Source of the DNA: Clostridiaceae bacterium
GTDB lineage: Bacteria > Bacillota > Clostridia > DSM-8532
Assembly: GCA_012519655.1 (NCBI GenBank)
Contig: JAAYPS010000162.1
Location: 1 to 38,711 of the forward strand
Direction of reading: 5' to 3'
Length of the DNA stretch: 38,711 nucleotides
The first letter of the stretch is position 1, and each line of letters opens with the position of its first letter. The notes beneath the pieces are model-generated. The model was given only the letters and a program-made list of their open reading frames with translations. It did no database searches and was not told the DNA's origin. A program made the position numbers and the translations under genes. Of this stretch, positions 12,397 to 35,105 are shown one piece after another.

Positions 12397-12525
12397 GCCC
12401 GATATACCCTCTTTCACGGCCTACGAGGTTAGCTGTCGGGCTCGGATTGAAAGAGATATCCTATCAAAAATGAATTCGCCCCAAAAAATGGTTCCCCCGC
12501 TCTACATATGTAAATTAGGCCTATA
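12397..12525 (-). promoter_or_regulatory. c-di-AMP riboswitch (ydaO/yuaA class) upstream of citrate synthase
   Basis: Read on the minus strand, the leader has the conserved blocks of the ydaO-yuaA class in order: GCCTAAT then a small hairpin, GCGGGGGAACC, TTTTTTGGGGCGAAT, ATAGGATATCTCTTTCAAT, CCGAGCCCGACAGCTAACC, TCGTAGGC and GTGAAAGAG. These match the pseudo-symmetric c-di-AMP aptamer. The class normally turns genes off when c-di-AMP is high, usually potassium, osmolyte or cell-wall genes. Here the next gene on the strand is citrate synthase. Boundaries are estimated by eye. Confidence 0.9.
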
Positions 12526-12553
12526 TAATTTCAACGAAAAACTATACTTTGTT

Positions 12554-19524: not shown

Positions 19525-19550
19525 ACTTTTTTCCAAAAACAGAAAAACAC

Positions 19551-19677
19551 ATCTTCTTTCATCCAGACTGTACTGTCGGCTCCGGAATTCAACCGGATCA
19601 ACCTCTTAGAGGCTCGCGGGCTTTCAGCTTTTGCTGATTACCGCCGGTAGGGAATTACACCCGTCCCTGAAGATTCT
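19551..19677 (-). promoter_or_regulatory. FMN riboswitch (RFN element)
   Basis: Read on the minus strand, the leader has the conserved RFN blocks: ATCTTCAGGGACGGGTGTAA, TTCCCTACCGGCGGTAAT, AGCCCGCGAGC, TGATCCGGTT, AATTCCGGAGCCGACAGT and ACAGTCTGGATG with AAGAAGAT closing the basal stem. It would stop ribU transcription when FMN is plentiful. Confidence 0.97.
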
Positions 19678-19740
19678 TATTAGATTTTAATTATCCCAAA
19701 AAGCTAAACGAATAATAATCATGATTAATTATTCTTCATA

Positions 19741-23085: not shown

Positions 23086-24432
23086 CTACCTACCTGTAAA
23101 ATAGATATCTTCTCCTGGTTTCTTTGAAAATTCTTTGTCAAGTTCCATTTTGATTATTGTATCTATTGGAGATGTCAGCTCTTGAGGAATATCAATGGTT
23201 ATACCCTCGGCGCTCTGGTTAAATCCTACTTCGCTACCACCTAATACTGTGCACTTAACAATATTGGTTTCCATCGCAGGCAACTTTAGTTTTCTAAATT
23301 CATCCATATCTAAAATGTGTAAGTAGATAATGTTTTTGTTATATGTACTACCATAAACCCTATCCACAGGCTCAAAAGGACCTCCTCGAGTGCCATAGAC
23401 GCTCTCTCCATTTTTATTCATCCATTTGCCAATTTCCTTTAGTCTGTGAACAGCTTCCTCAGGAATTACCCCATCTTTGTCAGGTCCTACATTCAATAAC
23501 ACATTGCCATCACGGACAAATACATTTACAAGCATGGTAATAGCTTCTTTTTGTGTCATTATTGGATCATCAGGAATCCAACCCCAAGAGGTTCCACTGC
23601 CTATACAGAGATTTTTTTCCCAAGGAACAGGAATAATTTTACCCGTAATTTCATGCGAGCCTTCGTCACAGTAAAAATCACCTTCCCATCCAGAACGAGG
23701 GTTTACGACAACCTTAGGGTTATGGCTTTTCACCATTTTATTTAGTTTATCAGGTTCCCATAGCCATGCACTTGTTGTATCGTCTCCCTTGTGAGCAAGC
23801 CATCCGCCATCATACCACAGAATATCTATTTTCCCGTATTGGGTCATTAATTCCTCTACCTGATCATAGCATTGCTTTTTCATAAGAAGTGCATTATCCA
23901 ACAATTCCTTCGGGTGGAAATAACCTGGAAAGCGCCAATCCATAGGCGAATAATATAATCCTACCCGCAGCCCGGCATTTCGGCAAGCTTCCACGTATTC
24001 CTTAATGAAATCTCTTTTTGCTCCTGTTGCCATACTATTAAATTTATTGTAGCTTCCTGGACTGTCCCATAATGCAAATCCATCATGGTGTTTGGCAACC
24101 ATCACCATGTATTTCATTCCTGCTTCTTTGGCAATTGATGCCCATTCATTTGCATCAAATTTCTGTGGTTTAAATTCATCTGCTAGCTTAGCATATTCTT
24201 CAGCGGGTATTTTCTCAGCATGCATAACCCATTCACCACGGCCCAGAATAGAATAAAGTCCCCAATGTATAAACATTCCAAACTTTGCGTCACGCCACCA
24301 AGCCATATCTTCTTCAGAAAGCTTAAGTCCGGGTACTTTAAGCCCACCCAGGCTTTTGAAATTTATGCTGCTTTTTAGCATTGATTTTAATTCTGCACCG
24401 GTCATTTCTCTTGGCTTTTTCTTTGTACTCAT
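23086..24432 (-). CDS. Alpha-L-fucosidase, GH29
   Basis: Retaining alpha-L-fucosidase. The 448-residue protein has the GH29 barrel start WWRDAKFGMFIHWGLYS, the substrate-binding KHHDGFALWDS and the catalytic nucleophile D208 in KIDILWYDGGWL. A small C-terminal beta domain follows from about 350. The catalytic acid is not conserved across GH29 and I do not assign it. There is no signal peptide, so it probably works in the cytoplasm on imported fucosides. AAGGGG precedes the ATG. With the GH95 gene it gives the locus two unrelated fucosidase mechanisms, which commonly differ in linkage preference. Confidence 0.95.
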   Translation of the reverse strand: MSTKKKPREMTGAELKSMLKSSINFKSLGGLKVPGLKLSEEDMAWWRDAKFGMFIHWGLYSILGRGEWVMHAEKIPAEEYAKLADEFKPQKFDANEWASIAKEAGMKYMVMVAKHHDGFALWDSPGSYNKFNSMATGAKRDFIKEYVEACRNAGLRVGLYYSPMDWRFPGYFHPKELLDNALLMKKQCYDQVEELMTQYGKIDILWYDGGWLAHKGDDTTSAWLWEPDKLNKMVKSHNPKVVVNPRSGWEGDFYCDEGSHEITGKIIPVPWEKNLCIGSGTSWGWIPDDPIMTQKEAITMLVNVFVRDGNVLLNVGPDKDGVIPEEAVHRLKEIGKWMNKNGESVYGTRGGPFEPVDRVYGSTYNKNIIYLHILDMDEFRKLKLPAMETNIVKCTVLGGSEVGFNQSAEGITIDIPQELTSPIDTIIKMELDKEFSKKPGEDIYFTGR

Positions 24433-24902: not shown

Positions 24903-25871
24903 ATGAAAAAAACAAAAATTCCATTCGCTAATTATTTTTATAACAAGCTGATGCTTTTAAACACAGGAATCATTTGTGTTGTAACTCTTCTGTTCGGGGT
25001 TATAGCATCTAAAAACGCCATAAACTATGAGCGTGTCATGATGCTTAGGTCATACGACGATGCACTTAATCAGCTGCATGCAAACTATATTACCAAACAG
25101 GATAACTTCTCTAATCTAATGCTTACTTTTTATGAAAATGGTGATAACTTTCAGGCTATCAGCACTCTATTAGATAGCGATTCTGCTGATCTTTCGTCCA
25201 TTGACGCCTTTGAGTTGCAAAGAATAACTGTTCTTTTCAATGCTCTTTGCAATAAGGATCCCGATATTCTTTCAGTATTCGTATATAAGACCAAAACCGA
25301 AACATTATATTCTTACAGTCCAGCCTCCAGGGTTGTGAAAAAACTAAGTTCAGATTCACCTATTTATGACCAGTTGAAAAACAGAAATTTCTCCAGATCA
25401 ATTCATCCAGCAATGAACATAAGCAGCTCAGAATCTGATACACCTATTCTTACCTATGGGATCGGCGGGAATCTAAGCTCGGCCTCGGCCAGCATTCAAA
25501 GAAAACCTGGAAATATAATGGTTGCGTACAGTTTTAGTGGGCTGCAACGCGCTCTACAAAATAAAAACTTTCGCTTTCCTGGAAGGTTCTACATACTCAC
25601 ATTAGACGGAAAAGTAATATTTGATTCGGAAAAACAGATTGTCAGCTCTACCCAAGGGACTCAGTTTCCTTATGTGGAACAACTAATTAACAAGCAAAAT
25701 GTTATAACCATTGACGGTACAGAGTACTTCTCATCATCAATTATCGATGAAAAATACAAATACATATCCACTTACATTGTTCCAAAAGCAGATGTAGCCC
25801 CATTTGGTTTGCCTGGAAGTAGAATTTTAATGCACGCTTGTAGAAGCTGTCTTCATCAAGTACAGAATTGA
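24903..25871 (+). CDS. Sensor histidine kinase, N-terminal sensor half, truncated
   Basis: The protein starts MKKTKIPFANYFYNKLMLLN, has one membrane helix at about 17-37 and an extracytoplasmic sensor region (Cache-like, as in YesM-type kinases). The second membrane helix, HAMP, dimerisation and ATPase domains are missing. Native-looking sequence stops at about residue 298 (IVPKADV). The last 24 codons read antisense through the end of the facing solute-binding protein gene, so they are not native. Breakpoint near base 25797. As it stands it cannot signal. In intact loci such kinases regulate the neighbouring sugar transporter together with an AraC-type regulator. Sequence upstream of the ATG has only a weak ribosome binding site. 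Confidence 0.85.
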   Translation: MKKTKIPFANYFYNKLMLLNTGIICVVTLLFGVIASKNAINYERVMMLRSYDDALNQLHANYITKQDNFSNLMLTFYENGDNFQAISTLLDSDSADLSSIDAFELQRITVLFNALCNKDPDILSVFVYKTKTETLYSYSPASRVVKKLSSDSPIYDQLKNRNFSRSIHPAMNISSSESDTPILTYGIGGNLSSASASIQRKPGNIMVAYSFSGLQRALQNKNFRFPGRFYILTLDGKVIFDSEKQIVSSTQGTQFPYVEQLINKQNVITIDGTEYFSSSIIDEKYKYISTYIVPKADVAPFGLPGSRILMHACRSCLHQVQN

Positions 25872-26688
25872 TGGTATGGTTGGTTACATGCGCTTCCATT
25901 AACGGGCTTACATACTCGGTATCAATACCATATAAGAATGATAGGGTTGATACCTGAAGTGCGGTCAAGCTATCCCAGTCTGAGAATAGTGTAAAGCCAT
26001 ACACTTTCTCACCAGCTTCATTTACAGGATATATATCCTGCATTTGCTTTGTTACTGTCAAGTAGTCTTCCAGGGTATTGATTTCTGGCATGCCTACCTG
26101 TTTATACTGGTCCCACATCAACATTGGCTTCCAGTTGGTGTCTTTTGTAGCACCAAGTGGTCCAACTGCTGTCGGGATTATATACATATTACCCGAACCG
26201 CTGCTAAGTTCATTACGGCTGTATTTAACAGCATACTTCATCATATCGTTATCAAATATGTTAGGCATTATGTCTTTGTATTCTTCCAAATTTAGCAACA
26301 TTTTTGCGTCTACAGCAGCAATTCCTTGTTTATGCTCTTTGAATCCGACGATATCGGTCAGATCACCACTGGCCATCATTGCCTGAAGTTTTTGCTCAAC
26401 GGCATCACCAGTAGGAGCAAATTCAATTTGAATCTTAAGCTCATCTTTCATTATTTCAGCCATCCAGTCTTCTTCGAGACCAAAATTAGAGCTTACAGAC
26501 TGCATAATAAAAGCTGTCAATGTAACTAATTCCTTTTGTTTTTCAGGTTCGGCTGTGCTTGTACCAGTTGTTGGAGCAGTTATGGGCTTCGCTGGTGTTT
26601 GAGTTGTGTTTGCGCAACCAGTGAAGCTAACAGCCAAAATCAGAACTGCCAACAACATTGTCAGAATACTTTTCGTTCTTTTTTGCAT
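25741..26688 (-). CDS. Sugar ABC transporter solute-binding lipoprotein, truncated
   Basis: The lipoprotein start is clear: MQKRTKSILTMLLAVLILAV, then the lipobox SFTGCANT, then a Thr/Pro/Glu-rich linker. The body (TAFIMQSVSSNFGLEEDWMAEIM, DIVGFKEHKQGI) is a family-1 extracellular binding protein of the LplA type, normally about 500-550 residues. Native sequence runs to residue 298 (YFQANQMGL); where a continuation like IDPDS is expected, the frame enters the facing kinase gene and ends 17 codons later. AGGAGG precedes the ATG at good spacing. It is the third gene after two permeases and would deliver oligosaccharide to them. The truncated protein probably cannot fold its second lobe. Confidence 0.88.
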   Translation of the reverse strand: MQKRTKSILTMLLAVLILAVSFTGCANTTQTPAKPITAPTTGTSTAEPEKQKELVTLTAFIMQSVSSNFGLEEDWMAEIMKDELKIQIEFAPTGDAVEQKLQAMMASGDLTDIVGFKEHKQGIAAVDAKMLLNLEEYKDIMPNIFDNDMMKYAVKYSRNELSSGSGNMYIIPTAVGPLGATKDTNWKPMLMWDQYKQVGMPEINTLEDYLTVTKQMQDIYPVNEAGEKVYGFTLFSDWDSLTALQVSTLSFLYGIDTEYVSPLMEAHVTNHTINSVLDEDSFYKRALKFYFQANQMGLHLLLEQCKWICICIFHR

Positions 26689-26783: not shown

Positions 26784-27683
26784 TTATCCTTTTACTGCAC
26801 CAATCATAATACCCTTTAGAAAATACTTTTGGAAGAAGGGATATACAAATAGAATGGGCAGTATTGTCAGCATAGTAATAGTGAAACGTACCGACGTTGG
26901 AGTTAGTAATGTTGCAGGATCAATATTTGCAGCAGCTTCGGGATTTGTTTTCAATACCTCGGCAAGCGCTGAAGCTTCTCTTAAATACAAGTAAAGTGTA
27001 TACTGCAGTGTGAACAGGCGAGTTCTGCTTGTATATAACACTGTATCCATAAAAGAGTTCCACTGACCTACGGCAGCAAAAACAGCAATTGTGGCTATAA
27101 TGGGCTTAATCAGTGGGAATATAATTTGGGTATATCTGCGTAAATAACCCGCTCCATCAATTTCTGCCGATTCTTCCAGCGATGGAGGAATGGATTCTAT
27201 ATAGGTTTTACATAAAATCAAATTAAAAGGTGATACCAATGCTGGTAGAATGTATACTAGATAATTGTTTATGAGACCTAGGTTTTTATAAGTAACATAT
27301 ACAGGAATAATACCTGCGCTAAAATACATGGTTGCAACAATAAAACGGTACCAGAACTTCCTACCCCAGAATTCAAGCTTACTCAATGTATACCCTGGGA
27401 ACGAAGCAGAAATTATTGAAATTAAAGTTCCCAATACTGTTCGGGTCAAAGAGATCCATGCTGCTTGTGGTAAATTCTTTATTTTAAAGGCGCTTAAATA
27501 GTTCTCAATATGAATCCCTCTCGGATATAGCATAATCCTCCCCATTGAAACTAATGAGTTGTCACTGATTGAGTTAATCAGGATATAGTAAAAGGGGAAA
27601 ATGCATATAATTGTAAAAAGCCCGAAAAATGTATAGTTTATTATGTTGAATATAGCACTCCCTACAGTTAGTTTTCTCCTCAT
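26784..27683 (-). CDS. Carbohydrate ABC transporter permease (YtcP/LplC type)
   Basis: A 299-residue inner-membrane permease with six predicted helices. The EAA loop that contacts the ATPase reads EESAEIDGAGYLRRYTQIIFPLIKP, with the family's usual G. Length and the ending GIMIGAVKG are typical of the LplC/YtcP group, which handles oligosaccharides such as polygalacturonate or other complex glycans. GGGGGGAC precedes the ATG. It lies 11 bases downstream of the partner permease, so the two are co-translated. No ATPase gene is nearby; these importers normally share an MsmX-type ATPase coded elsewhere. Confidence 0.95.
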   Translation of the reverse strand: MRRKLTVGSAIFNIINYTFFGLFTIICIFPFYYILINSISDNSLVSMGRIMLYPRGIHIENYLSAFKIKNLPQAAWISLTRTVLGTLISIISASFPGYTLSKLEFWGRKFWYRFIVATMYFSAGIIPVYVTYKNLGLINNYLVYILPALVSPFNLILCKTYIESIPPSLEESAEIDGAGYLRRYTQIIFPLIKPIIATIAVFAAVGQWNSFMDTVLYTSRTRLFTLQYTLYLYLREASALAEVLKTNPEAAANIDPATLLTPTSVRFTITMLTILPILFVYPFFQKYFLKGIMIGAVKG

Positions 27684-27694
27684 TATTGTCCCCC

Positions 27695-28645
27695 CTAAAA
27701 TATACTATCGCCACGAACCAACTTAGAAAACCAGTTAGCAGTAAACAACAATATAAGGCTTATAATAGATTTTGTCATTCCTACGGCAGTTGCATATGAA
27801 ATATTGTTGCCTTGAATACCTTGGTTGTACACATAAAGGTCAAGAACCTCAATATATTCCTTGTTCATAGCAGTCTGGAAAATGTAGTACTGCTCCATAC
27901 CGTTATTTAATAAATTCCCTATGGAAAGCATGAGCAAAACAAAGAATGTGGGCAATAAGCCAGGTACTGTAATGTAAAGCATTTTGGAAAAACGTCCAGC
28001 TCCATCAATTTCTGCTGCTTCATATAACTCTGTATCAATAGAAGTTAGTGCAGATATATATAGAATCGCATTCCAACCAAGGTTTTTCCATTGCCCGTAA
28101 GCCCATTGAGTAATCCATACATTCTTACTTGTTCCAAGAAAGGCAATGGGTGTTTCGATTAGCCCAAATTTTAGCAGCACATTGTTAACTAAACCATCAT
28201 TTATAGAAAACAGTGACCATACAACTGAATACACTAAAACCCAGCTTATAAAGTGTGGTATTGTTGTTAAAGTTTGAACTGCCTTACGATATCTTTTTGA
28301 ACTGATTTCACCAAGAAAGATGGCAAATATCATGGGAAGTATCGATGTTGCCATTCCCAAAAAGCTCATAACCAACGTATTTCTCAATACTCTAACTATG
28401 TCATCCCGTAATATTGGATTACTAAAAGGTACTAGAAAATATTTCAAACCTACAAAATTAGTATCCAACAGTTTATGTCCTGCTTTATAATCAAAAAAAG
28501 CAAAGCTCCATCCAAACAAGGGTACATAGGAAAAAATAAAAGTAGCGATTAAAAAGGGCAGGGTCATCAAAAAAAGTTTTTTACCACCTATTTCTTTTGC
28601 TGTAGAATGCTTTTTCTTTTTATTTATGTTTTTTGGAAAGACCAT
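27695..28645 (-). CDS. Carbohydrate ABC transporter permease (LplB/YteP type)
   Basis: A 316-residue permease, first gene of the transporter operon. After a very basic N-terminus (KNINKKKKHSTAKEIGGKK) there are six helices. The EAA loop reads ELYEAAEIDGAGRFSKMLYITVPG. The ending NWFSKLVRGDSIF is the family's typical C-terminus. AAGGAGG lies 10 bases before the ATG. With the LplC-type permease and the downstream lipoprotein it forms the three-gene CUT1-type importer set. The fucosidases flanking the operon suggest a fucosylated oligosaccharide as substrate; that is inference from context. Confidence 0.95.
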   Translation of the reverse strand: MVFPKNINKKKKHSTAKEIGGKKLFLMTLPFLIATFIFSYVPLFGWSFAFFDYKAGHKLLDTNFVGLKYFLVPFSNPILRDDIVRVLRNTLVMSFLGMATSILPMIFAIFLGEISSKRYRKAVQTLTTIPHFISWVLVYSVVWSLFSINDGLVNNVLLKFGLIETPIAFLGTSKNVWITQWAYGQWKNLGWNAILYISALTSIDTELYEAAEIDGAGRFSKMLYITVPGLLPTFFVLLMLSIGNLLNNGMEQYYIFQTAMNKEYIEVLDLYVYNQGIQGNNISYATAVGMTKSIISLILLFTANWFSKLVRGDSIF

Positions 28646-28787: not shown

Positions 28788-29055
28788 AATTGTTCTCCTG
28801 TAACTTTAAGAGTTCATGAGGATTGTTTTCTGTTTTGAACACATATTAGAAACACATAATATAGTTCATTTAGCATATCTTACAATTTAAAGTATATCTT
28901 GCTTATGTTTTTTAGTAAATTGCACTAATTATATAAATTGATACAAATTATGAACAAAATATTAACAGGCCTTCAACAAAAACATATTGATTTTCTTTAT
29001 TTACTTTATTTTTTAAAACTACCAAACTTGGCTAATCTACAATCATTTATTTGTT

Positions 29056-29117: not shown

Positions 29118-30194
29118 CTATCTTTTACATGACATTTTTTCGACAAATTTAACAATATCCCTAGCTTCCGTCTCATTCTCAGCATCATTAACAATCAAAT
29201 GGAGGCCCTTTGGTGATAGCTCTTCAAGCAGTATCTTCAATTCATGTTTTTTAGGAAATAGTATAAGGCCCTTACCAGCTTCTTGGATTCGCTTTAATAC
29301 CGGGATAAAATCTGACGTCGGTGGCTGACCTGCTACAGGAGTCCATTGAATCATGTTGAGTTTCTCTAGAGATAATATCATATCTAAATGACGGATTTGT
29401 TCTTGACCATCAAGATGATAAATTGAATGATCCAACCATTGTGTTGCTCTCTCAAGCTCTATCATTGCGAACTCTTCAAACATGTCAGGTGATATCATCA
29501 CAGAAAAATCCACCTGTAAGTGCTGGTGTTTTCCAGGTGACCATGTATTCATCCACCCATGGGCGCTTCCTCCCTCGTTATTTTCACGAATAATATCAAA
29601 TATTTCTTCGCTGGATTGAATGTATCCATCATATATTGCCTCAATACACTGTTTCACCCAGTCGGGATTGTCAATTAAATCAAATAATAGATCGCTAGAT
29701 CCTCTTAAATGCTCAAGAGCATCAATAATTCCACAGTTGTCCGGCACTGAAACAAAATACTTGCCCATTCCTTCCTTGGAAAGATATCTCATGCATTCCT
29801 TTTCTACCTTGAGAATACTATCGTCTCCAATGTATTCGGGTATTTCTCCATCCTCCATAGAAGCTTCGTACCAAACTGTATCTTTTGAGAAACTAAATTT
29901 TGCATTCTTAAAATATTTAGCGTGTCCTGCTGTACCAAAATTTGTCCAGAGGACAGGATGTGCCTCACCCCCGAAATATGTGTTTTCAAAGCGGTGCATT
30001 TGCCTTTTATGTACCCATTCGCCATCAGTAAAATAGTGGAATAGATCCTCGGGGCTTTCGGGCATTTTCTCGCGCACGTAGTTATGACTATCCTTTAAAG
30101 CTGTAACAGATATACATGCCCTGTCAATGATTTCGTTATTCCATAGAGCTTCAAGACGTTGCTTTGATTTATCCCAATCATCCTTAAATAACAT
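29118..30194 (-). CDS. Uroporphyrinogen decarboxylase-fold protein (UroD/MetE-like TIM barrel)
   Basis: A 358-residue protein of the UroD-like superfamily that occurs beside glycosidase and sugar-transport genes in Firmicutes. It is not HemE: the HemE start and substrate arginines are not seen. Visible segments include WNNEIIDRACISVTALKD, DNCGIIDALEHLRGSSDLLFDLIDNP, VDFSVMISPDMFEEFAMIELERA, and HLDGQEQIRHLDMILSLEKLNMIQWTPVAGQPP. The conserved HLDG may hold metal or substrate. The frame runs to 30266, but GGAGG lies 6 bases before the ATG at 30194, which begins the usual MLFKDDWDKSKQR. The reaction is unknown. It is divergent from the GH95 gene and shares its control region. Confidence 0.8.
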   Translation of the reverse strand: MLFKDDWDKSKQRLEALWNNEIIDRACISVTALKDSHNYVREKMPESPEDLFHYFTDGEWVHKRQMHRFENTYFGGEAHPVLWTNFGTAGHAKYFKNAKFSFSKDTVWYEASMEDGEIPEYIGDDSILKVEKECMRYLSKEGMGKYFVSVPDNCGIIDALEHLRGSSDLLFDLIDNPDWVKQCIEAIYDGYIQSSEEIFDIIRENNEGGSAHGWMNTWSPGKHQHLQVDFSVMISPDMFEEFAMIELERATQWLDHSIYHLDGQEQIRHLDMILSLEKLNMIQWTPVAGQPPTSDFIPVLKRIQEAGKGLILFPKKHELKILLEELSPKGLHLIVNDAENETEARDIVKFVEKMSCKR

Positions 30195-30355
30195 GTTTAC
30201 CTCCATTTTTATAATCATTGAAAATACAAAAGGATATTCAGAGTTTTTGTTCATATCCATACACAAAACAGTTGATTGATCATTCTTACAAATTCTATTA
30301 TATATCTTACGGATTATTTATAACAATTGAACAAATTATAAGATTTTGAACAAAC

Positions 30356-30429: not shown

Positions 30430-30499
30430 GCAAAATAATCATTGCCGCAACACTCTCGAAATCTTAATTTGACTGTTGATAGGAAAGGTGGATGCAGAA

Positions 30500-32827
30500 T
30501 TGGTTACTAATAATAAAAACACATCCTTCGAAAATGACTATTTAAAGCTCTGGTATCGACAGCCTGCTTCTCGATGGCAGGAAGCTATGCCCCTTGGAAA
30601 TGGTAGAATGGGTGCAATGATAACTGGTGATCCCGTTAAAGAAATTATTGACTTAACCGAGATTACCTGTTTCTCAGGAGAAATACATAATAATGACACA
30701 TACAAGGAATCTCACTATTATTTCTATAAAGCCAGAGAAGCACTTATTAATAAAGACTATCCTCTGTCTCAGAAGTACCTACAGCAATATATTGGGGAGC
30801 GGCAAAATTATGGAACCCATCTTCCCCTAGGTCATTTGGTTATCACTACAGAGCATAAAGATATGAATGTTAGTAATTATATCCGCAGCCTCAATTTGAA
30901 TACAGCTGTGTCAGAAGTATCTTACAATATTAATAGCCATTCTTTTTATTCTCGTACTGCATTTATCTCTAATCCACAACAGATTATGATAATTAAATTC
31001 GAAGCCGAAGATGGTTGTTTGAATCTTGCTCTTTCCCTTGATGGAGGCAATAACCCGTATCAGGTTTGTGTTGACGAAACTGGTTATTTTCTTACAGGAA
31101 ATGCTTTTGAAAGTAAGCATAGTGATGGAAAAACCGGTGTTTCTTTTGCAGCAGAACTACATGTTGAATCAACTGGCGGCTCAGTTTACACAGAAAATAA
31201 ACAGATTTATATTGCAGATGCAAAAAGTGCCATCGTGTATATTGCCATTGAGACCGATTTCAAAGGATTAAAGCCTATTAAACTATGTAGGCAAAGGATT
31301 CAAAAAGCACTATCTTATTCATTTGATGAACTTTTACAAAATCATATTAATGATTATCAGGAACTGTTTAATAGAGTTAATTTTTATTTGGGCGAATCAG
31401 AAGGCTTACCAACCGACGTGCTTGTTAAACAAGTACAGGAAGGCAGTGTTAGTCCCTATTTAACCTCACTAATGTTTCAGTACGGACGATACCTTCTGAT
31501 ATCATCATCCCGGCATAATTCCCCATTGCCAACTCAGCTTCAGGGAGTATGGAATGACTCTGTTGCTTGCAATATAGGCTGGACATGTGATATGCACCTG
31601 GATATCAATACCCAGATGAATTATTGGCCGGTTGAAACAACTAATCTATCAGAATGTCATGTACCATTGTTTCAGTGGATAGAAAATTCCCTTGTACCAT
31701 CAGGCAGGAAGACCGCCCGCTTATTCTACAATCTAAACGGATGGGTTGCTGAGCTGGTTTCCAACGCTTGGGGCTATACAAACCCTTATTGGCACATCAA
31801 CCTTAGCCCTTGCCCAACTGGCGGCGCATGGATTGCAACTCATCTATGGGAACATTATCTTTTTACACAGGACAAGGACTTTCTACAAGAACATGTCCTT
31901 CCTGTTATTGAAGAAGCTGCAATCTTTTTTATGGGATATTTGTTTGAGGATCCTGAAACAGGACACCTTACCTCCGGACCTTCGATATCTCCAGAAAATC
32001 ATTTTTTGGTTGATGGAAAACCATATAGTGCTTCCATTGGACCAGTGTATGAAATCGTAGTAATTCGTGAAATTTTTGATATATACCTAAAATCATGTGA
32101 AATATTAGGTATTTCAGGAGACTTCTTCGAAAATGTAAAAGACGCAAAAAATGCATTACCACCCTTTAAGATCAGTGAAAATGGTGAGTTAATGGAATGG
32201 AGCCACAACTATAAAGCCTCAGATCCCCAGCATAGACATACCAGCCACCTGCTTGCACTGTTTCCATTCTCCCAAATTACACCCGAACACACCCCCGATC
32301 TTGCTCGGGCAGCCAGAGTCACAATTGAAAAACGGATGACACCTGAAGAAATCTGGGAAGATACTGGCTGGGCACGTTCTATGTTGATGCTGTATTCAGC
32401 AAGGCTAAAGGACGGTAGGGCAGCATTTGATCATATACTAAATATGCAGCAAAAGCTCACCAATCCCAACCTTATGGTGAAGCATCCACCAACCCGGGGG
32501 GCCCCATCATTTGCGGATGTATATGAGTTGGATGGTAATACTGGTTTGACTGCATGTATTGCTGAGCTATTACTGCAGAGCCATAATGATGAAATTGAAC
32601 TTCTTCCTGCGCTTCCAGATTCCTGGGAAACTGGTTCTATCAGTGGTCTGTGCGCCCGTGGAGGATTCGTTATTAATATGGAGTGGAAAGACCTTTCTCT
32701 AATTAAGGTTCAGGTGTATTCCTTAAGTGACAACATATGCAAAATTCGTTATGGTGATAGAGCAATTAAGCTTGTTACCGAAACAAAGCACACCTATTGC
32801 TACGATGGAAACTTAGAACCATGGTGA
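30500..32827 (+). CDS. Alpha-L-fucosidase-like GH95
   Basis: An inverting GH95 enzyme, usually specific for alpha-1,2-linked L-fucose, with some members acting on alpha-L-galactose. The 775-residue protein has the N-terminal beta domain start LKLWYRQPASRWQEAMPLGNGRMGAM and an (alpha/alpha)6 barrel with DINTQMNYWPVETTNLSECH. The general acid is E499 in SGPSISPEN. HTSHLLALFPFSQITPEHTPDLARAA and EEIWEDTGWARSMLMLYSARLKDG are further barrel hallmarks. There is no signal peptide. The frame opens with TTG at 30476, but AAGGTGG lies 8 bases before a TTG at 30500, the likelier start. Where characterised enzymes read NIN in the active site, this one reads DIN. Confidence 0.93.
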   Translation: MVTNNKNTSFENDYLKLWYRQPASRWQEAMPLGNGRMGAMITGDPVKEIIDLTEITCFSGEIHNNDTYKESHYYFYKAREALINKDYPLSQKYLQQYIGERQNYGTHLPLGHLVITTEHKDMNVSNYIRSLNLNTAVSEVSYNINSHSFYSRTAFISNPQQIMIIKFEAEDGCLNLALSLDGGNNPYQVCVDETGYFLTGNAFESKHSDGKTGVSFAAELHVESTGGSVYTENKQIYIADAKSAIVYIAIETDFKGLKPIKLCRQRIQKALSYSFDELLQNHINDYQELFNRVNFYLGESEGLPTDVLVKQVQEGSVSPYLTSLMFQYGRYLLISSSRHNSPLPTQLQGVWNDSVACNIGWTCDMHLDINTQMNYWPVETTNLSECHVPLFQWIENSLVPSGRKTARLFYNLNGWVAELVSNAWGYTNPYWHINLSPCPTGGAWIATHLWEHYLFTQDKDFLQEHVLPVIEEAAIFFMGYLFEDPETGHLTSGPSISPENHFLVDGKPYSASIGPVYEIVVIREIFDIYLKSCEILGISGDFFENVKDAKNALPPFKISENGELMEWSHNYKASDPQHRHTSHLLALFPFSQITPEHTPDLARAARVTIEKRMTPEEIWEDTGWARSMLMLYSARLKDGRAAFDHILNMQQKLTNPNLMVKHPPTRGAPSFADVYELDGNTGLTACIAELLLQSHNDEIELLPALPDSWETGSISGLCARGGFVINMEWKDLSLIKVQVYSLSDNICKIRYGDRAIKLVTETKHTYCYDGNLEPW

Positions 32828-34829: not shown

Positions 34830-35105
34830 AATAAAATTGAAAAGCACCCTAAAATAATGGGTCTATCCCATCATTTAAGGGTGCATATACAACTGCACGG
34901 TTCCACCTTAACTTTTAACTTTCAGATTCTAACAAATCCTATCCTTTAACGCAGGCACACGGCAATGCTTACTAACTTCGGCATTACAGCTCCAGAGTGG
35001 TTTTCGTTTATTCTCCTGCATAAAAACTTACACCAAATACTGTTTTTTTCTCTGACTGATTCAAATAAACTACTGTTTCCTTCATCGCTTTTCCATATAA
35101 TATTA
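34830..35105 (-). promoter_or_regulatory. T-box leader of thrS
   Basis: On the minus strand the leader has the T-box bulge sequence AAGGTGGAACCGTGC (34909-34895), which pairs with the acceptor end of uncharged tRNA. An 18-bp terminator stem with two mismatches follows (GCACCCTTAAATGATGGG against its partner, 34844-34884), with TTTTCAATTTTATT after it. The 5' half holds the stem I region, with AACCACTCTGGAG on its 3' side; ACC or ACT there is a plausible Thr specifier. The leader's 5' end is at the promoter at 35112-35139. Confidence 0.93.

Follow-up and report, generated by a model that had tools for sequence, protein, structure and literature searches.

Whether two neighbouring genes that converge and both stop short at one base record a loss in living cells or a fault of assembly is the question raised by this locus. 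The window, that is, the whole stretch of DNA analysed here, is 38,711 nucleotides long and makes up an entire contig (JAAYPS010000162.1, our C47) of the Clostridiaceae bacterium draft genome G000, which comprises 2.63 Mb in 198 contigs and is 97.6% complete and 0.45% contaminated. The plus-strand open reading frame (ORF) at 24903-25871 encodes 322 aa and the minus-strand ORF at 26688-25741 encodes 315 aa. In the preliminary description, both genes were held to lose their native sequence after codon 298 at about base 25797, each then reading a short antisense stretch of the other. Alignment with a sister genome, Clostridiales bacterium DTU070 (G002), which belongs to the same genus, placed both cuts exactly to the base, and the antisense tails were recovered by blastn and by the orthologue alignments. 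The features are collected in Table 1.

Table 1. Features around the join in the window and at the corresponding locus of the sister genome (stretch L022)
Feature	Position	Strand	Basis
GH29 alpha-L-fucosidase, intact	23086..24432	-	Alpha_L_fucos E 4.9e-85 (Pfam)
YesM-type sensor histidine kinase, 5' remnant, codons 1-298	24903..25796	+	Similarity to sister-genome orthologue
Non-native tail of minus-strand ORF, antisense kinase DNA	25741..25794	-	Kinase similarity reaches 25796
Join, GTAG	25794..25797	.	Alignment of both genes to sister genome; unique in genome
Non-native tail of plus-strand ORF, antisense lipoprotein DNA	25797..25871	+	blastn match to sister-genome lipoprotein region starts at 25796
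LplA/YtcQ-like sugar-binding lipoprotein, 5' remnant, codons 1-298	25795..26688	-	Sister-genome orthologue
ABC permease (LplC-like), intact	26784..27683	-	BPD_transp_1; 80.5% identical to sister genome
ABC permease (LplB-like), intact	27695..28645	-	BPD_transp_1; 83.2% identical to sister genome
GH95 glycoside hydrolase, intact	30476..32827	+	Glyco_hydro_95 N, catalytic and C-terminal domains (Pfam)
Sister genome: kinase, 615 aa	L022 4635-6482	+	Pfam HAMP, His_kinase, HATPase_c
Sister genome: YesN-type response regulator, 516 aa	L022 6469-8019	+	Pfam Response_reg, HTH_18
Sister genome: EF-Tu/L12-like gene	L022 8024-9160	-	EF-Tu domain 2, ribosomal L12 C-terminal domains
Sister genome: lipoprotein, 586 aa	L022 9474-11234	-	Pfam SBP_bac_1
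Sister genome: permease	L022 11308-12213	-	
Sister genome: permease	L022 12228-13175	-	

The plus-strand gene is 58% identical to the sister-genome kinase over 298 aa (E 1.3e-113), and the similarity stops at V298 (codon 25794-25796); the final 24 codons of the ORF are antisense lipoprotein. The N-terminal membrane segment and the extracellular sensor region are kept, whereas the second membrane segment, HAMP, His_kinase and HATPase_c, as judged from the intact orthologue, are lost. The ORF itself had no Pfam match, and HAMP, His_kinase (PF06580) and HATPase_c were all absent from it; it is named a kinase because its orthologue carries these three domains. It is a truncated kinase remnant and not a working YesM-type member. 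On the minus strand, the signal peptide and the first half of the lipoprotein are kept, with 77% identity to the orthologue over 292 aligned codons (75% in the search that found it). Here the similarity stops at L298 (codon 25797-25795), in a context conserved across relatives (NQMGL-[LV]DPDSLTQ). This ORF also had no Pfam match, and its 298 native residues compare with ~550-610 aa for a full-length, two-lobed SBP_bac_1 protein.

Homologues of both proteins are full length and about twice as long. Kinase homologues have open frames of 666 and 670 aa, and homologous lipoproteins are mostly open over ~450-670 aa. In a more distant relative of the family (G011), the kinase (656 aa) and the lipoprotein (610 aa) are both full length and lie on one strand. 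No homologue complete at the short sizes of the window was found among those examined. The earlier proposal that a single join lies behind both truncations was thus supported.

The sequence of the join was then compared with both parent genes. The native kinase and lipoprotein parts overlap by 2 bases, the microhomology is at most 4 bp (GTAG alone fits both parent genes), and no bases are inserted. Even with 3 mismatches allowed, the genome holds a single copy of the 33 bases spanning the join, and no shared words of at least 7 bases were found near the two break points in the sister genome; a repeat-mediated misjoin was rejected on these two grounds. A junction with this little homology (4 bp at most), free of filler and without a repeated copy, is typical of illegitimate recombination, and such a short match would not suffice for an ordinary misjoin at a k-mer repeat. 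By blastn, similarity to the sister genome starts at 25796 and extends to 28597 through both permeases (72%); therefore all the sequence to the right of the join belongs to the lipoprotein/permease side.

In the sister genome, the cassette genes of the window are intact on one contig, in matching order and orientation. Between the equivalent cut points lie 4,817 contiguous bases that are absent from the window. Of these, 951 belong to the kinase and 874 to the lipoprotein, and the segment also contains the whole genes for the regulator (1,551 bases) and the EF-Tu/L12-like protein (1,137 bases). The kinase start and the lipoprotein-permease region are collinear between the two genomes, and only the intervening segment is missing. 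The preliminary description had left the choice between a deletion and an inversion; because order and orientation match, the rearrangement is a simple deletion. It had also named the kinase end and the second lobe of the lipoprotein as lost, which held, but the comparison makes the loss larger, as the whole response regulator is gone too. The deleted length would be 4.8 kb if the ancestor resembled the sister genome, with the EF-Tu/L12-like gene lost as well, and ~3.4 kb if the ancestor lacked that gene. Among four genomes of the genus examined, only the sister genome has an orthologue of the response regulator. The EF-Tu/L12-like gene, which sits between regulator and lipoprotein, encodes a 378-aa protein with an N-terminal hydrophobic segment, an EF-Tu domain 2/3-like region and a ribosomal L7/L12 C-terminal domain, an unusual combination.

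The preliminary description had suggested searching the rest of the genome for the missing kinase and lipoprotein ends, and this search returned only paralogues. The best matches in the genome were 32% identical for the kinase end, 28% for the lipoprotein end and 24-38% for the response regulator, well short of the 58-75% at which orthologues would be expected, and no orthologue of any of the three was found. Relocation of the missing halves within the genome was rejected accordingly, the paralogues standing at only ~24-38%. The left contig edge interrupts the gene of another YesM-type histidine kinase, leaving its C-terminal end at 3-506; this fragment is 33% identical to the sister-genome kinase end, a paralogue, and was rejected as the missing half. 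The missing piece could lie within the roughly 2% of the genome that is unassembled. A search for plasmid records near-identical to the window found none.

We consider a recent illegitimate deletion, carried by some or all of the population, to be the probable origin of the locus (about 75%), its existence in cells being a matter of inference. One continuous segment would have been removed from a cassette of sensor kinase, response regulator, lipoprotein and permeases, with one end inside the kinase gene and the other inside the convergent lipoprotein gene. Both genes are cut at one base and carry short antisense tails because the join lies within two convergent genes.

The loss is either very recent or an artefact, because both remnants are free of stops and frameshifts and show no faster protein evolution. 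Against the outgroup G011, the kinase half is 21.9% identical in the window and 23.3% in the sister genome, and the lipoprotein half 45.3% and 46.7%; synonymous sites are saturated in this comparison, and the reading of age uses protein identity only. The window remnants are thus not faster-evolving than the intact genes.

The less probable account, though one to be taken seriously, is an artefact of assembly or library: the organism itself would carry an undamaged locus, and the join would stem from a chimeric molecule or from the collapse of a gap separating two contigs placed in their correct order. Undecayed, normally constrained remnants are expected of it as much as of a very recent deletion, and no decay proves that cells lived with the loss; the draft lies in 198 contigs, and a wrongly closed scaffold gap would likewise give the correct order and orientation. 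However, gap characters are absent, the two sides have at most 4 bp in common and the junction sequence has no second copy. The missing 3.4-4.8 kb was not found as a separate contig, and a scan of the other genes of the window revealed no similar cut. By our estimate, a random chimeric join in a 2.6 Mb genome would meet the right partner, within 5 kb and properly oriented, in ~1/1,000 of cases. The literature on YesM/YesN and on chimeric contigs yielded nothing bearing on this join.

The other explanations fared worse. It is improbable that the deletion was selected rather than accidental, in a lineage discarding sugar import and two-component control and keeping glycosidases and permeases. 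An inversion or translocation uniting two unrelated broken genes could produce genes that converge at the join, but it is very improbable, as kinase and lipoprotein also converge in the sister genome with intact genes between them, the flanking permeases are collinear, and no reciprocal junction or displaced ends were found in the genome. That the short genes encode natural, functional half-length proteins fits their open, stop-free frames but is scarcely credible, since the native sequence of both stops at one base, each running out in the other's antisense, and the homologues, about twice as long, hold the catalytic domains or the second lobe in the missing half.

If the deletion is accepted, the absence of the binding protein would leave the transporter inactive, and the cluster would have lost its two-component control, kinase and regulator together. 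The locus had earlier been called a fucose-glycan locus. Whole GH29 and GH95 genes do adjoin it, but the link is weak, as it is drawn from a neighbourhood that is not conserved: the sister-genome cassette adjoins URO-D-type genes and, by our own reading, a GH4-like gene, and neither GH29 nor GH95 was apparent among the genes listed for that stretch.

Several further elements of the window were recorded. The 382-aa ORF at 29118-30266 (minus strand) had no match in Pfam or NCBIfam, and resembles only very weakly (E 0.003) the URO-D-like protein that occupies this position in the sister genome. Upstream of the first permease gene, a non-coding block at 28890-28971 is 74% identical to its counterpart position there and is possibly a promoter or operator for the lost response regulator. 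An operator common to several promoters was rejected, the block having no above-chance copy upstream of the GH29, GH95 and kinase genes. Elsewhere on the minus strand, a c-di-AMP riboswitch (12402-12531) lies upstream of a citrate synthase-like gene, an FMN riboswitch (19547-19678) upstream of an ECF transporter component, and a T-box (34874-35094) upstream of a threonyl-tRNA-synthetase-like gene.

In annotation, the two ORFs ought to be labelled as truncated, and no working sensor or binding protein should be inferred here. A real deletion would illustrate, on a small scale, a single event that knocks out uptake and regulation at once; otherwise, a local assembly error has been flagged in a public genome. 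Neither outcome touches an open question, and the case comes down to either everyday gene loss or a slip in the assembly; no new type of system is involved. The intact sister-genome locus has the domain set of a YesM/YesN two-component system with an LplA/YtcQ-LplB-LplC-type carbohydrate ABC importer, including the AraC-type HTH regulator and two BPD_transp_1-like permeases. In the window, by contrast, only the sensor half of the kinase, the first half of the lipoprotein and the permeases are left, and the regulator is gone. Ordinary illegitimate (microhomology) deletions that make pseudogenes likewise leave one join with at most 4 bp of homology, no insertion and two truncated genes; the only oddity here is that the genes converge, so that the truncations are visible as tail-to-tail ORFs.
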